From Caryophanales bacterium (GTDB lineage Bacteria; Bacillota; Bacilli; Paenibacillales; CANHCR01), in assembly GCA_947459205.1 (NCBI GenBank), contig CANHCR010000011.1, forward strand, positions 1-60,773: a stretch of 60,773 bases of DNA, in the 5' to 3' direction. Both the position numbers and the translations under genes were made by a program. Position 1 is the first letter of the stretch. Each line of letters begins with the position of its first letter. Shown here piece by piece: positions 7,564 through 24,993 of the stretch. The notes under the pieces are model-generated. The model was given only the letters and a program-made list of their open reading frames with translations, had not been told where the DNA came from and did no database searches.

Positions 7564-7583
7564 GTGATGGCCACCTCAAAGTG

Positions 7584-7596
7584 TATATCTGATATA
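7584..7596. promoter_or_regulatory. Perfect dyad upstream of the MFS gene
   Basis: TATATC-T-GATATA is a perfect 13-bp palindrome 20 bases upstream of the MFS start. An 8-bp inverted repeat (GTGATGGC at 7564-7571 and GCCATCAC at 7612-7619) encloses it. Both could be operator elements for the nearby TetR or MerR regulators; no clear -35/-10 pair was identified. Confidence 0.4.
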
Positions 7597-7630
7597 TTTT
7601 CTCCACTTCTCAGCCATCACCGGTTACTCC

Positions 7631-8398
7631 TTACCCCAAAGTCGGTACGACATTTACGAGATAAATAACCAAGCCGACGATCCACAGCCACAACGGAACA
7701 CGCATACTTTGGAATGTGTCATCCTTTCGAAACAACATCAACGACATGATGAACACCCAAAGTACATGTAAACCGAAGACTGGCACAGTAATCGAACTGA
7801 GAAATGCACTGCGAATCACAACATCAAAACATTGAATCATTAACGCCAAGCCGGAAATCACACCAAACATCGCTAGTTTTTTGTCATACCCTCTATGTTT
7901 CAGCAGCACGAAGCCGAGCAAGAGGAGCCACAAACCAACAAATAGTGAACCCAAATGTTCACCAACCGTCATGCCAAAGTATGTATTTGAATATTTTTCG
8001 AGAAAGAAAATCAATTCTCTTGAAACTTCGCCGTTACGATATTCGTCGCTGAGCATCGGAATGAGAACCACCCAACGAAAAAAACCGAGAATCTGAAACA
8101 CACCGCCTACGACACCCGCGGTCACGGCTGCCAAATCTAACAATTTGCCACTCCGTGTATGATGAAACATCATCACAGCCATGAACACTTGTAAGAACGC
8201 ACTGAAGCCAAACAGATAATACGTCGGAATAATAATCGCTTGATTCTCATGAAACAATTGAAACCGTTCGACAGCACTTTCCCGCAGGATGTCAGGAAAG
8301 TTAAAGTAAATACCTAATATTGTGTTGCAACCAGCTAGCAACAAGAAAAACGTGAAAAAGACGGCGGATGTTGCTCTGTACTCTTTCTTTGTACTCAT
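7631..8398 (-). CDS. DUF4386-like integral membrane protein
   Basis: About 255 residues with six to seven hydrophobic segments and short loops. The pattern of an N-terminal segment followed by FPDILRE, a mid-protein GEHLGSLFVGLWLLLLG and a short charged end resembles the DUF4386 family, whose function is unknown. ATG 8398 is preferred over an in-frame upstream codon because GGAG lies eight bases before it. It follows the MerR gene after 42 bases and is probably co-transcribed with it. Confidence 0.7.
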   Translation of the reverse strand: MSTKKEYRATSAVFFTFFLLLAGCNTILGIYFNFPDILRESAVERFQLFHENQAIIIPTYYLFGFSAFLQVFMAVMMFHHTRSGKLLDLAAVTAGVVGGVFQILGFFRWVVLIPMLSDEYRNGEVSRELIFFLEKYSNTYFGMTVGEHLGSLFVGLWLLLLGFVLLKHRGYDKKLAMFGVISGLALMIQCFDVVIRSAFLSSITVPVFGLHVLWVFIMSLMLFRKDDTFQSMRVPLWLWIVGLVIYLVNVVPTLG

Positions 8399-8440
8399 TT
8401 GATTCATCTCCTTTATTAAAGTTAGATGAATCATAATCCC

Positions 8441-9295
8441 TCACACGATGTGAGAGTCAATGGGCAATTGCAACTCGATGACAGCACGTTCCACTAACAC
8501 CCCATTTTGGTGAACAGGACCAGAGACGTGCAGTTCGCGCATTTCACCGGCAACTGTCCAATCGTTGCGCCCCAACCACTTCAACAGTTCGAAAATCGCC
8601 ACTTCGATCCCTTCAACCGATCCACTATAAACGACCGATGCTACTTCCGGTTCGTAGGCCAAGTGCCGGCATGTCAACAGCGAGCCAGCAAGTGCCTCGA
8701 TTTGTGCAGACGTTCCTGCGATTGCCGTGCTGACTTCCATGTCGATATCAGTCTCGCTGTAACTGTCTTGATGATAGAACGTCACTTCTGGACCGAGCGG
8801 CTCGATCTGCAATCGCCGCAGTTCCGCATACAGTGTCGTGTGCATTTGCAAACAATATTCACCCATCACGCTGACATGCGGCACAACTTCGCGAAACGAG
8901 GCGACTACCATCGCGTCCGCACTCTTAATGTTGACCTCGTACAGTGGCGCCGCACGCTCCAGATGAATTGAGCGCAATCGCTCCTTCACCTCATTTAAAT
9001 GAATATGAGACAAAGTAATCTCATGTTCTAATTCCTGCTGCCGTTTCAGCAGCTTCGCTTCCATCTCTTCTAGCGAAATTTGCTCGTCCACCAACTCCGC
9101 AATCACTTGCAGTGGGAATCCAAGATTTTTCAAATACATGATCTTGTTGATTCTCGGCAGTTGGTCGATGGAATAAAAGCGGTATCCTGAATCAGCATCG
9201 ATCGATGCTGGTTTGAGCAGACCGATTTGATCGTAGTGGCGCAACATGCGGATCGAAACTTTGGCTAACCTTGAAAAATCACCGATTCGTAATAT
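8441..9295 (-). CDS. MerR-family regulator with effector-binding domain; apparent ATA start
   Basis: The N-terminal winged helix reads LRIGDFSRLAKVSIRMLRH then YDQIGLLKPA, followed by a coiled-coil dimerisation helix (about 85-118) and a C-terminal GyrI-like effector-binding domain (about 130-284). The HTH must begin upstream of the internal ATG at 9247, otherwise half of the first helix is lost. In this frame only ATA (9293-9295) sits at the family's usual start position. It lies seven bases after a G-rich site, and no ATG, GTG or TTG exists between it and an upstream in-frame TGA. The gene begins one base after the TetR stop codon. Confidence 0.75.
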   Translation of the reverse strand: MLRIGDFSRLAKVSIRMLRHYDQIGLLKPASIDADSGYRFYSIDQLPRINKIMYLKNLGFPLQVIAELVDEQISLEEMEAKLLKRQQELEHEITLSHIHLNEVKERLRSIHLERAAPLYEVNIKSADAMVVASFREVVPHVSVMGEYCLQMHTTLYAELRRLQIEPLGPEVTFYHQDSYSETDIDMEVSTAIAGTSAQIEALAGSLLTCRHLAYEPEVASVVYSGSVEGIEVAIFELLKWLGRNDWTVAGEMRELHVSGPVHQNGVLVERAVIELQLPIDSHIV

Positions 9296-9296
9296 G

Positions 9297-9857
9297 CTAC
9301 TCCCCCCCGACTTGTTTCACATTTGCTTGCATCGGCGACAAAGCCGGCAAACCTAACGTTTCCGAAAGTGCCATCGACAGCCCTCGACCGATAAACGTAG
9401 CGGCCGCCAAACAAACATTCTCTACACCAGCCTCTTCAAACTTGCGTACGACGATTTGATGAATCCACTCAAAATGTAGTTTGCAAAACGCGCGGATCGC
9501 CTCTTCATTGATCGTGTATGCCTGCATCGTCAGTAAAATGACCTTGCGATTTTCTTCAAGCAATTGTGCAAACGCCTGCCCCATCATGCGATACAGTGTA
9601 TCGGACGGTGCCGTGACTTGTTGAAACGCCTTTCCAATTTCTGTGAACCCATGTTCTAACACAGCCAAATAAAGTTCTTCTTTCGTTTTGAAAAAGTGGA
9701 AAATGTACGGTTGCGTGACCCCGGCTGCGCGCGCAATCATCGCAGTCGTCGTCTTATAAAAACCGTGTTCGGCGAATAACTCGACAGCCGCACTCAAAAT
9801 CTGCTGTTTTTTCGCCTCCTGTTTGGACTCTTTCATCTGTTTAGTTCTGGATGTCAT
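9297..9857 (-). CDS. TetR-family transcriptional regulator
   Basis: A 186-residue repressor-like protein. The N-terminal HTH is ILSAAVELFAEHGFYKTTTA plus MIARAAGVTQPYIFHFF, the classic TetR signature, followed by a helical ligand-binding domain. ATG 9857 is favoured by GGAG ten bases upstream; GTG 9863 is an alternative. It overlaps the alpha/beta hydrolase gene and is followed directly by the MerR gene. The perfect AT-rich inverted repeat at 10653-10678, placed on the hydrolase promoter, is the likely autoregulatory operator. Confidence 0.92.
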   Translation of the reverse strand: MTSRTKQMKESKQEAKKQQILSAAVELFAEHGFYKTTTAMIARAAGVTQPYIFHFFKTKEELYLAVLEHGFTEIGKAFQQVTAPSDTLYRMMGQAFAQLLEENRKVILLTMQAYTINEEAIRAFCKLHFEWIHQIVVRKFEEAGVENVCLAAATFIGRGLSMALSETLGLPALSPMQANVKQVGGE

Positions 9858-10632
9858 GTTCACTCAACTCCATCAATTCGCTAATCATTTCATTGACGCG
9901 ATCCGGCGCTTCCAACGGACTGATATGCCCGCCTTCGACAATGCGAACATTCGCAATCGGCGGTATGCCGACATAGTCTTCCTCACCAGCAATGGCGATC
10001 ACCGGAACTTGCAGACGTTGCAAGTCCTCGGAAGCATCTCGCGACTGAATACGCACCGTCCGATCAGCGTGTTTGATTTCGCGATTTTTCAACTTCGCCA
10101 TCGGTTCGCGTAACTGCTGCAGTAGTTCAGGACGGGTCGCCAAGCTGTTTTTGCCATACAACGACTTGCCCGCCTGCGTGATGTAAAAAGTGCGGAACGA
10201 GAGTAACGTGTGCTGAATGGTTGTGAGTAGTTTTAACGAGCGTGGCGATTTTCGAAACGGAATATTGCACAAACCGATTGCGGCAAACACCTCCGGCTTC
10301 ATCAGAGCAGCTTGAGCAATCGCCCTCCCGCCCCAAGAATGTCCGACAGCGATCACGCGGTCGATGTTCAGTTCAGCCAAAATGTCCAACAACATGGTCG
10401 CACAGTCAACAAGTCTCCAATCCAGTTTGCTGATTGATGTGCTTGCGCCGTGATGTGGCATATCAAGTAAAATTACCGTTCGGTCATCAATCGCTTCGAC
10501 TTGCTCATGCCACAAGTGATGTTCAAAATATAGCCCATGCAAAAAAACAATCGGCGCGAATGCATCATTTCCCCGCTGAATATGAACAGCGATGGAGCCG
10601 ATTTTCGTGCCGATGTATCTGGTTTCTTTCAT
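9841..10632 (-). CDS. Alpha/beta hydrolase
   Basis: A 263-residue alpha/beta-fold hydrolase. The oxyanion segment is FLHGLYFEHHLW (about 29-40), the nucleophile elbow is GHSWGG (Ser near 117), an acid follows in AIAGEEDYVG, and the catalytic His is in EGGHISPLEAP. The family includes esterases, haloalkane dehalogenases and lactonases; the substrate cannot be assigned. It is the first gene of a hydrolase-TetR-MerR group and its promoter carries the likely TetR operator, so its substrate or a related compound may be the inducer. Confidence 0.88.
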   Translation of the reverse strand: MKETRYIGTKIGSIAVHIQRGNDAFAPIVFLHGLYFEHHLWHEQVEAIDDRTVILLDMPHHGASTSISKLDWRLVDCATMLLDILAELNIDRVIAVGHSWGGRAIAQAALMKPEVFAAIGLCNIPFRKSPRSLKLLTTIQHTLLSFRTFYITQAGKSLYGKNSLATRPELLQQLREPMAKLKNREIKHADRTVRIQSRDASEDLQRLQVPVIAIAGEEDYVGIPPIANVRIVEGGHISPLEAPDRVNEMISELMELSEHDIQN

Positions 10633-21267: not shown

Positions 21268-21579
21268 ATGGGGAACCGAAATTTACAACATGTCCAGCAT
21301 CATATTCTGATCTGTAACGGCGAAAGTTGTTTGCGTAACCGCGGTGATGAAGTCACCCTCACTATCCGCGAACAGATTGCTGATTTGAAGGCCGACGAGT
21401 ACATCCACACAACGCGAACGAGATGTAACGGACGTTGCAATGAAGCATGCGTTGTCATTGTGTACCCAGAAGGCGATTGGTACCGAAACATGACACCGAG
21501 CGAAGGCAAACAATTAGTGAGTGATTTATTGAACGAAACGAGATTAGTAAAAGATAAAGCGTTCCATTCATTTAAGTAG
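21268..21579 (+). CDS. Thioredoxin-fold (2Fe-2S) ferredoxin-like protein
   Basis: A 103-residue protein beginning with HHILICNGESCLRNRG and containing TRCNGRCNEACVVIVYPEG. Cysteines at about 16, 21, 53, 57 and 61 follow the spacing of the thioredoxin-like (2Fe-2S) ferredoxins, which bind one cluster or, in cobalamin enzymes, assist metal insertion. It lies eight bases after the CobW-type gene and is followed by a terminator, so the two genes form one unit that probably responds to metal supply. Direct action on zinc is not shown. Confidence 0.8.
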   Translation: MGNRNLQHVQHHILICNGESCLRNRGDEVTLTIREQIADLKADEYIHTTRTRCNGRCNEACVVIVYPEGDWYRNMTPSEGKQLVSDLLNETRLVKDKAFHSFK

Positions 21580-21584
21580 AAGAA

Positions 21585-21613
21585 AAAGGGGCTTCCATGG
21601 CGGAAACCCCTTG
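21585..21613 (+). terminator. Terminator-like hairpin after the ferredoxin gene
   Basis: AAGGGG and TTCC pair with GGAA and CCCCTT (one C-A mismatch) around a short loop, six bases past the stop codon. The following bases are only moderately T-rich. Confidence 0.6.
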
Positions 21614-21641
21614 TTTGCTCAGGAAGACCTTTCGGCAAATT

Positions 21642-21782
21642 TCAAATTGAACTGGTGTCACCGTGTTTTCGGTCCAAATCAATAATTACTCCCAGTTGAT
21701 CAGTCAAATGTCGGGTAATCCTGCTCTTTTCAGCACCATTTGTGCCAGCAAATACCGTCATTCGAGGTTTTTTCTCAGTCAA
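21642..21782 (-). pseudogene. Truncated zeta-toxin-like ATPase fragment
   Basis: A 46-residue remnant reads MTEKKPRMTVFAGTNGAEKS, then RITRHLTDQLGVIIDLDR, before a stop. The pattern xPxMTVFAGTNGxGKSTxTR with downstream IIDPD is that of zeta-toxin-family kinases, so the Walker A lysine and serine remain but the second loop glycine is Glu, and the rest of the kinase is missing. It starts at TTG overlapping the preceding small gene by eight bases, so the cassette's original gene order is preserved. It cannot be functional as a kinase. Confidence 0.65.
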
Positions 21783-21873
21783 GTAATTCTACCTCGATCC
21801 ATTCGCCTTCCTGCTGCAACACCTCTACAAGACGACCGTCTGGATATTGACGAATCAACTTGTCATTTTTCAT
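21775..21873 (-). CDS. Small gene in the zeta-toxin-like cassette
   Basis: A 32-residue reading frame, MKNDKLIRQYPDGRLVEVLQ followed by a short acidic end. It overlaps both neighbours (TTGACTGA downstream, ATGA-like upstream), the coupling expected in a compact toxin-antitoxin or accessory operon. The sequence is charged and could fold as a small beta strand pair. No family was recognised, and it may be a leftover of the decayed cassette. Confidence 0.45.
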   Translation of the reverse strand: MKNDKLIRQYPDGRLVEVLQQEGEWIEVELLD

Positions 21874-21985
21874 GAAACTGATTCTGTTTTGCTTCGATCA
21901 GCACCTCTGAATAAGTTGCATCTAGTCGTTCCTGCAGTTGTTGTGATGACATCAGCAAACCCTCGACATATAGCGCTTTGTGCAT
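21863..21985 (-). CDS. Small gene heading the zeta-toxin-like cassette
   Basis: A 40-residue reading frame starting MHKALYVEGLLMSSQQLQER and continuing with a mostly helical, charged segment. GGAG lies six bases before ATG 21985, a good ribosome binding site. It overlaps the next small frame by 11 bases. By position it could be an antitoxin-type partner of the truncated kinase, but no family was recognised. Confidence 0.45.
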   Translation of the reverse strand: MHKALYVEGLLMSSQQLQERLDATYSEVLIEAKQNQFHEK

Positions 21986-21993
21986 GATCTCTC

Positions 21994-22671
21994 CTAACAA
22001 TTTCGCGCCAACCACTCATGAATCAACCGAATCAATGTAGGATGTGTATGCTTATTTGGATTGGAACGATATTCTTTTATTAGATTCAACATCGAATGTT
22101 TGGCAAAGTACGGCTGTAATACATGATTCATATTCTCGACGATATGCCACTCTGCGTTTCCATTCGCGGTTTGTGTCAATCGGACGACATCCTGAGGATT
22201 CACCTGTACATCACGATCTCCCGTAATCGCTAGTACTGGACAATCGATTGTTTTCATCACATCCTGTACGTCATAGGTTAAATGTTCACGTATCCACTTC
22301 GCATTTATGGGGACAACTCCCTGCAGGCGTACAACATCGCGGTCAGACTGATTCACTTTTGCGAACAACTTAGACAACTGTTTTTCCTGACTTATCCATT
22401 TCATAATCATTCTTAAAATCCAACCTTTGAAACCGGACATGGTACGAATCTCATTCAATGCTTGTCGGGTTTGTCTGTACATCGTATTTTCCAACGTTTC
22501 CCCTGATCCTGCAATCAAAATCAAACCTCTCACCGGTCGTTTCAGATGGACTGCCGGAGCAATCATCGCACCTTCACTATGTCCGAGCAAAAATATGCGA
22601 TTTGGGTCCACTTCTGACCGAGTGCGCAAATATGCGATAACCGCCTGAGCAAAGGCCGAGAAATGCCGATA
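21994..22671 (-). pseudogene. Alpha/beta hydrolase lacking its N-terminal part
   Basis: The readable part contains the nucleophile elbow FLLGHSEGAMIA, VPINAKWIREH, an acid region AITGDRDVQVNP and the His region VENMNHVLQP, so the C-terminal two thirds of an alpha/beta hydrolase are intact over about 220 residues. The reading frame opens only after a TAG at 22672-22674 and the N-terminal strands with the oxyanion HG motif are missing. The preceding AIAYLRTRSEVDPNR-type linker is present, so this is a truncation rather than a short family. An in-frame TTG at 22629 could start a partial protein. Confidence 0.7.
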
Positions 22672-22749: not shown

Positions 22750-22878
22750 TCAACGATTTTTTTCACTCCATTCTTTGAGTAATTCCGGTTCATGGTACCA
22801 AATAAAAGAATTTCCAATAACACCTAACTTAGCAATGAACTCGAGCAAGAAAGCTAAAAAATTAATTGTAATTTGCAT
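22750..22878 (-). CDS. AgrD-like cyclic autoinducer peptide precursor
   Basis: A 42-residue peptide: an amphipathic hydrophobic leader (MQITINFLAFLLEFIAKLGV), then IGNSFIWY, then a charged tail HEPELLKEWSEKNR. AgrD precursors have exactly this three-part form, with a Cys or Ser five residues from the mature C-terminus and a Pro-Glu-Leu-type tail. Here Ser-Phe-Ile-Trp-Tyr would form the five-residue lactone ring, comparable to Listeria (CFMFV-YEPK). A scrap of agrB precedes it, which supports the call. No agrC or agrA is present in the window, so any signal would have no local receptor. Confidence 0.6.
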   Translation of the reverse strand: MQITINFLAFLLEFIAKLGVIGNSFIWYHEPELLKEWSEKNR

Positions 22879-22892
22879 ACATTGACACCACG

Positions 22893-22997
22893 TTAATTAG
22901 ATTCTATCTGATGAATCCACCGTCTAATGATAGATAGTGAAAAAAATAGCGACACAACGACCCCGCAAATTAACGCCTTTATCAAGCACTCACTCAA
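22893..22997 (-). pseudogene. C-terminal scrap of an AgrB-like membrane endopeptidase
   Basis: A 34-residue frame beginning at a TTG that overlaps the ABC-F stop codon reads ALICGVVVSLFFSLSII then RRWIHQIESN. The hydrophobic helix followed by a short basic end ending IHxIDS-like residues fits the end of AgrB proteins, which cleave AgrD. The N-terminal catalytic part (His and Cys) is absent. It stands directly before the AgrD-like gene, the normal agrBD order. Confidence 0.45.
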
Positions 22998-24901
22998 TGT
23001 CCAGCGAGTTCAGATAGTTCGGTCCAGCGCATAATTAGTACATCCACTTTCTGTTGAAGTTCTGTTTGTTGTTGTAAAAGTCGGTTAAGTTCGATTGCAT
23101 CTGAACTGTTCCTATCCATCAATTCAGATACTTGTCGCAATTCGCTTTCCGCTACTTCAATCCATCCTTCAATTTGTTCATATTCTTTTTGTTCTTTGTA
23201 AGTCATTCGAACCGGTCGCATGCTATTCGAGATGCCCACTGGCACTGGCTTTGCACCCACACCATGCGACCTATTGTCCGGGTTTGCCGAGTTATGGATG
23301 GCTTGTCTGCGAAGTGTCTCTTCGTATTCACTATAATTGCCGACGACATTCTGAACCTCGCCTTCCCCATTAAGTGACAAGATTCGATCGACAGTTCGGT
23401 CCAAGAAATACCGGTCATGTGACACAACAAACACGACGCCCGGAAAATCATCCAAGTAGTCTTCAAGCACACTCAGAGTGGCTATATCCAAGTCGTTGGT
23501 GGGTTCATCCAGCATTAGCACGTTGGGTGACTGCACTAATACGCGCAAAAGTTGCAGACGTCGCTTTTCTCCACCAGATAATTTGCCAATAAACGTCCAT
23601 TGCATGGTTGAGGAGAAAAGAAATCGTTCTAACATTTGTCCTACAGAGATCACTGCTCCGTCCGCCGTGCGAACTTGATCGGCAACTTCACGAATGTATT
23701 CAATGACTCTCATCGTTGGGTCCAACTCTTCGAACTCTTGGCCGAACCAGCCAAATTGTACGGTCGAGCCAATATGTATGCGTCCTTCGTCCGCCTCTAA
23801 TTTTCCGGCAATTAACTTGAGCAAGGTAGATTTGCCGCTACCGTTACGCCCAATAATCCCAACTCGCTCACCTGGAACGGCAATAAATTGGAATCCTTGA
23901 ATGAGTTTGCGACCAGCAAATGATTTGCCGAGGTTTTCGATTTCAACGATTTTCCTACCGAGTCGAGATGACGCAACAGATATCTCAACCTTACCTATGG
24001 AATTTTTAGGTTGCTGCCCTTGGATTTGATCAAAACGATCGATGCGTGCCTTTTGTTTCGTCGTCCGCGCTTTGGCTCCACGGCGAATCCACGCCAATTC
24101 GTTCCGCAACAAATTCTGCCGCTTCGCTTCGGACGATGCATCCCTTTCCTCGCGCTCAATTTTTAATTCGATAAACCGACTATAGTTGGCCTCATAGAAA
24201 TAGGCCGCTCCACGGTCGAGTTCAATGACACGGTTACAGATGCGATCCAACACATAACGGTCATGCGTAACCATCAACAACGCACCTTTACGTTTCTGCA
24301 ACAGGGCCTCCATCCAGGTCACCGACTCGTGATCAATATGGTTCGTCGGTTCATCTAGTATAAGAATGTCTGACGGTTGCAACAATACCGCAGCAATCGC
24401 CACCCGCTTGCGCTGTCCACCTGACATTTGGGACACTTTCTGGTCATAATCATGGATACCTAACTTCGATAGCGCCGACTTGGCTTCACTTTCGAGCGAC
24501 CATACATAAAGTTCATCCATCTTGCTCTGAACAGACAGGAATTGATTATGAATATGTGCATCATCTGCTCGATTCTCCAGTTCGACCAACACCTGTTGAT
24601 ACTCACGAAGCACTCGCAACGGCTCTGAATCTCCACCCAACACGTGCTCCAAGGCCGTTTCTTCCGGATGAAAGATCGGTTCTTGCGACAACATTCGAAT
24701 GACAATCGAGCGCCCAACGGTCACTACACCTGAATCCGGCTGATCGACACCAGCGATTACTTTTAGTAGACTCGACTTTCCCGTTCCATTCACACCTATA
24801 AATCCAATTCGATCACCTTCTGCTACACCAAACGAAACGTCAACAAATAATATTTTTTCACCATAACTTTTAGACAAATGCTCAGCTGATAACAAATGCA
24901 T
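22994..24901 (-). CDS. ABC-F family ATPase (YfmR/Uup-like), ribosome-associated
   Basis: A 635-residue protein with two ABC domains and no membrane segments. The first Walker A is GVNGTGKSS (about 36-44) with signature MSGGQRKR; the second is GRNGSGKSTLLK with signature LSGGEKRR; both domains have LDEPTN boxes followed by D(I/L)xS-type regions. The long basic linker around residues 240-330 is the P-site tRNA interaction motif of ABC-F proteins, and the C-terminal coiled coil occupies about 565-630. Such proteins act on stalled or antibiotic-blocked ribosomes. ATG 24901 follows GGAGAG. Its stop region overlaps agrB debris. Confidence 0.95.
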   Translation of the reverse strand: MHLLSAEHLSKSYGEKILFVDVSFGVAEGDRIGFIGVNGTGKSSLLKVIAGVDQPDSGVVTVGRSIVIRMLSQEPIFHPEETALEHVLGGDSEPLRVLREYQQVLVELENRADDAHIHNQFLSVQSKMDELYVWSLESEAKSALSKLGIHDYDQKVSQMSGGQRKRVAIAAVLLQPSDILILDEPTNHIDHESVTWMEALLQKRKGALLMVTHDRYVLDRICNRVIELDRGAAYFYEANYSRFIELKIEREERDASSEAKRQNLLRNELAWIRRGAKARTTKQKARIDRFDQIQGQQPKNSIGKVEISVASSRLGRKIVEIENLGKSFAGRKLIQGFQFIAVPGERVGIIGRNGSGKSTLLKLIAGKLEADEGRIHIGSTVQFGWFGQEFEELDPTMRVIEYIREVADQVRTADGAVISVGQMLERFLFSSTMQWTFIGKLSGGEKRRLQLLRVLVQSPNVLMLDEPTNDLDIATLSVLEDYLDDFPGVVFVVSHDRYFLDRTVDRILSLNGEGEVQNVVGNYSEYEETLRRQAIHNSANPDNRSHGVGAKPVPVGISNSMRPVRMTYKEQKEYEQIEGWIEVAESELRQVSELMDRNSSDAIELNRLLQQQTELQQKVDVLIMRWTELSELAGH

Positions 24902-24993
24902 CGATAATCTCTCCACAACTAGATTCTTAATGATAGAAATTGACTAAGATAAAGGCTATGCATACCGATTCAATTCAACCTTATGATTCAAAA

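Follow-up and report, generated by a model that had tools for sequence, protein, structure and literature searches.

In the staphylococcal agrBDCA system, AgrD precursors consist of a leader, a ring segment and a charged tail. They are encoded in a complete operon together with AgrC and the LytTR-type regulator AgrA, and the product in S. aureus is a thiolactone. Cleavage of S. aureus AgrD by AgrB is reported to take place between M32 and D33, with D33 and E34 described as essential for this step (PMC10196373). AgrD genes are also known outside any agr operon. One of them, from Clostridium thermocellum, yields a Ser-lactone pentapeptide that was identified by LC-MS/MS (PMC5322536). The locus presented here lies in a window of 60,773 nt, which is the whole analysed stretch of contig CANHCR010000011.1 from a Caryophanales bacterium. 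It encodes a precursor with the staphylococcal layout, but neither an AgrC-type sensor kinase nor a LytTR regulator is present at the site. With a probability of about 0.73, we regard this agrB end and agrD as what is left of a second, decaying agr locus for cyclic-lactone quorum sensing.

The orphan agrD frame is located on the minus strand at 22750–22878, exactly where the original prediction had placed an AgrD precursor of 42 residues. Its translation, MQITINFLAFLLEFIAKLGVIGNSFIWYHEPELLKEWSEKNR, is organized into an amphipathic leader, the residues Ser24-Phe-Ile-Trp-Tyr28 at the ring position and the tail HEPELLKEWSEKNR, and the frame is open, with neither a stop codon nor a frameshift. It matches the TIGR04223 profile (quorum_AgrD) with 24.8 bits (E 1.7e-5; curated cut-off 19). 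When the frame is aligned with 93 other AgrDs of the order, Ser24 occupies the ring column, five residues ahead of His29, which opens the tail. This column holds Ser in 47, Cys in 44 and Thr in two of the 93 sequences; Ser-type precursors are about as common as Cys-type ones in this order, and the Ser is not remarkable per se. Scanning the window in all six frames revealed no further AgrD-like frames, no Rfam matches were found in the window, and a tblastn search of a plasmid collection gave no match. A frame on the 3' side of agrD (TTG at 22753, NSSSLDIWDLVLLF...) was considered as the N-terminus of the membrane protein of an intact operon and was rejected (shuffle p 0.58, no alignment by BLASTP).

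Just upstream of agrD lies a frame of 34 aa (22893–22997, minus strand), in which residues 6–29 (22911–22982) represent the remnant of an AgrB C-terminus. These 24 residues align without gaps to positions 171–194 of the 197-aa AgrB encoded elsewhere in the host genome, subsequently referred to as the resident AgrB. A BLASTP comparison of the two gave an E value of 0.008, which applies to a shorter block within the 24-residue match, and about 2 of 5000 composition shuffles scored equally high (p 0.0004). The resemblance to AgrB that had been proposed for this frame was thus borne out at the level of the alignment, although the Pfam and NCBIfam profile libraries contain no match to it; among the profile searches, it was the AgrD frame that scored above its cut-off. 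Such a short match alone would be thin, but order and spacing agree with it as well: the agrB end precedes agrD by 14 nt at the orphan site and by 13 nt in the intact locus. No full-length AgrB accompanies the orphan agrD, only this C-terminal scrap. The frame is not fused to the end of the preceding ABC-F gene, as had been stated; instead, the two overlap in the sequence TTGA, which combines the TTG start of the frame with the ABC-F stop codon.

The host belongs to the same order as Paenibacillus and has a reduced genome, with 2.52 Mb in 73 contigs as against 5–8 Mb for many members of this order. Its genome contains one AgrB above the Pfam cut-off, on contig C5, and two AgrDs above the TIGR04223 cut-off, namely the orphan and the resident AgrD behind the C5 AgrB. 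This resident operon (7572–10050 of locus L005) comprises agrB, agrD and the genes for a 168-aa membrane protein and a 426-aa kinase, and no regulator gene adjoins it. The 168-aa protein displays six TM-like stretches and is perhaps a separate sensor domain, while the catalytic parts of the kinase are of the HisKA_3/NarL type rather than the AgrC type. When 32 other AgrD loci were inspected over 3 kb each, none had neighbors similar to those of the resident operon. A domain search of the host genome detected eight GerE (LuxR-type) domains above the cut-off and no LytTR domain at E<=0.01, and hence no AgrA-type LytTR regulator. Of the agrB, agrC and agrA genes that the original prediction had proposed to look for elsewhere in the genome, a complete agrB is therefore present, but an AgrA-type regulator is not and the kinase is of another type.

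The orphan and the resident locus share the Ser ring residue, the HEPxLxKEWS tail, an AgrB C-terminus just upstream and the 13–14 nt gap. Only the resident operon has a full AgrB, a strong AGGAGG site, the tail Pro and the downstream genes for the membrane protein and the HisKA_3-type kinase. Its precursor carries the Ser-type ring SWFFF and is 54% identical to the orphan over 37 aa. At E<=0.01, a search of 399 genomes of the order (the host's own included) gave the resident AgrD as the sole relative of the orphan, so the two most likely arose as paralogues within one lineage. An AgrD similar to either of them was not found in the other 398 genomes, and the genomes searched included no kin from the host's own genus or family. 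Another genome of the order (G012) contains a 40-bp DNA match, which is located in and beside a respiratory-complex-I-like gene and which we regard as due to chance. The two agrD genes differ at 11, 10 and 22 first, second and third codon positions over 37 codons (pN 0.31, pS 0.73). This bias toward the third position indicates that they diverged mostly under constraint, a point against the relic, and much of this divergence may predate the breakage of the orphan locus.

The same comparison bears on whether a random hydrophobic frame could simply resemble AgrD. Such short frames are frequent, and taken by itself the 34-aa frame would not convince. However, the HMM score exceeds a curated cut-off, none of 5000 shuffles matches the resident AgrD as well as the orphan does, the differences are biased toward third positions, and an AgrB end is found at the right place. 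Chance is accordingly an explanation of negligible probability, and judging from the sequences it can be considered refuted as far as membership in the AgrD family is concerned.

The agr remnant starts where an intact ABC-F ATPase gene ends (EttA/Uup-like, 22994–24916, minus strand; its CTD is matched over the full length). The nearest relative found for this gene, in the MAG Paenibacillaceae RE-23may17-333 (locus L044), is 75% identical and ends at the matching residue. On the other side, the gene for an alpha/beta hydrolase (21994–22659, minus strand) lacks the N-terminal ~60–85 residues: the match to PF12146 begins at profile position 65 of 239, residues 4–57 align to 90–145 of 7wwh_A, and the frame is closed upstream. 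This break at ~22660 adjoins the agr remnant. Both edges of the remnant are therefore break points or border on one, and the site has the appearance of a deletion scar, with the start of agrB and the start of the hydrolase gene gone. Between the hydrolase gene and 21570, short minus-strand frames (21572–22015) resemble gene scraps; one of them encodes a P-loop that weakly resembles zeta toxins (E 0.021, below the cut-off).

In RE-23may17-333, the one relative examined, unrelated genes follow the ABC-F gene and agr is absent from the site, so a complete agr locus at this position, for which relatives had been suggested as a source, was not found. The genome of this relative, which appears to be identical to G011 and is assigned to a different family of the order, contains two complete agr loci elsewhere. 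One locus (L127, 4367–8137, G399:C1) has agrD between two kinase genes and agrB after the second of them, all on a single strand. An AgrD of the relative (L053) had at first resembled a second orphan; the wider stretch shows kinase-agrD-kinase-agrB and the locus is complete. At another locus of the relative (L054, 868–2961, G399:C18), agrB is followed by an agrD whose ring residue is Thr (NTFVW) and by the genes for a membrane protein of 155 aa and a kinase of 287 aa. This kinase is of the AgrC type (SPOB_a/HATPase_c_5), and the split arrangement is otherwise like that of the resident operon.

An agrB-agrD unit paralogous to the C5 copy would once have been located between the ABC-F and hydrolase genes, or would have been pasted there as a fragment. 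A deletion on one side would have removed agrB except for its last ~25–30 codons, and a deletion on the other side whatever followed agrD together with the start of the hydrolase gene; the order of these events is one that we infer. Since agrD would have been located between the break points, its frame could have stayed open. It is also conceivable that no full operon was ever present and that illegitimate recombination placed a short fragment, comprising the agrB end and agrD, beside the ABC-F gene. This would fit a remnant of only ~0.3 kb that begins right at the ABC-F stop codon, as well as the absence of agr from the site in the relative. However, the truncated hydrolase at the other edge requires a deletion anyway, and no repeats or parts of mobile elements were noticed in the stretch. 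We consider such an insertion unlikely, in an estimate that overlaps with that for the relic, because it concerns the origin of the remnant and not its function.

Two differences between the orphan agrD and the genes compared argue against a functional gene. Codon 34 (22777–22779, minus strand) is CTC and encodes Leu, in a column ten residues after the ring Ser/Cys that is occupied by Pro in all 93 other AgrDs of the order (orphan HEPELLKEW, resident HEPKLPKEW). The same proline has independently been called highly conserved (PMC5322536). Given this loss, the orphan frame is a derivative of AgrD that probably does not work as one, and the Pro-to-Leu change argues against a living signal. The second difference concerns the stretch upstream of agrD (22879–22898, minus strand), which offers only a weak Shine-Dalgarno sequence (GGTG). 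Its predicted pairing with the 16S end amounts to −5.4 kcal/mol, compared with −12.0 kcal/mol for the resident gene, and is the weakest of 33 agrD genes compared. The other 32 (weakest −5.6, median −11.8 kcal/mol) were scored at the best-pairing start, a choice that somewhat favors them.

These features have to be weighed against the possibility of a working orphan signal, which is the main functional rival to the relic. In that case, agrD would be co-transcribed with the ABC-F gene, and the resident AgrB would act in trans to convert the precursor into the Ser-lactone pentapeptide cyclo(SFIWY), which would be sensed by the resident receptor or antagonize it. The frame is open and of the Ser type like the SWFFF precursor, the unusual KEWS tail is common to both, and the host has an intact resident AgrB. 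A search for terminators between the ABC-F gene and agrD found none, so that low-level transcription and expression of the open frame are possible, and the C. thermocellum case demonstrates that an orphan AgrD can give a Ser-lactone pentapeptide (PMC5322536). On the other hand, the invariant tail Pro is lost, the ribosome binding site is the weakest of those compared, the flanking genes are truncated, and the site is not conserved in the one near relative. A working signal therefore seems improbable to us. Much more doubtful still is a self-antagonist from the broken locus, in which a resident AgrB adapted to Pro-less tails would process the orphan to cyclo(SFIWY) and this would compete with the resident cyclo(SWFFF) at a single receptor.

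The relic reading is directly supported by the AgrD family match, the AgrB-end match, the intact paralogue, the differences in tail Pro and ribosome binding site, the truncated hydrolase and the lack of agr in the relative. Loss of function and of expression we infer: with a weak translation start and an AgrB-recognized tail that lacks the family's invariant Pro, the orphan agrD would probably no longer give a useful signal. Any precursor made by read-through from the ABC-F gene might be processed poorly by the resident AgrB. The original prediction of a broken agr locus with a surviving peptide gene thus holds for the breakage, as indicated by the HMM match, the AgrB end and the truncated neighbor, while functional survival is doubtful. 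Its suggestion of maturation by another AgrB or of a decoy role would be possible with a complete AgrB elsewhere in the genome; maturation of the orphan to a cyclic (thio)lactone by this enzyme is possible but not favored. If the locus is a relic, a small genome with two paralogous quorum-sensing systems has lost one of them, and an AgrD frame can be open and exceed the HMM cut-off without being functional, which is of relevance to automated annotation of cyclic lactone autoinducers. A living locus would offer a natural setting in which to test how signals are processed and interfere in trans.

A full AgrB is present within 1.5 kb on either side at 30 of 32 other AgrD loci, which are mostly best-scoring matches, and one of the two exceptions has an AgrB within 2.5 kb. 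At the other (L128, 6522–7291, G393:C2), the ORFs of 100 aa or longer within ~6.4 kb (13 kb in total) include no AgrB; this AgrD adjoins a 206-aa membrane protein and keeps the tail Pro. Orphan AgrDs have precedent, and the case in the window is another example. Like Clo1313_2818, the C. thermocellum precursor that gives a Ser-lactone pentapeptide (PMC5322536), it is of the AgrD type and located outside an agr operon. The C. thermocellum peptide was detected by LC-MS/MS. Clo1313_2818 keeps the conserved Pro (position 35, ten after the ring Ser), where the orphan has Leu. It is this lost Pro, together with the visible scrap of its former AgrB, that distinguishes the orphan in the window from the known orphan AgrDs.
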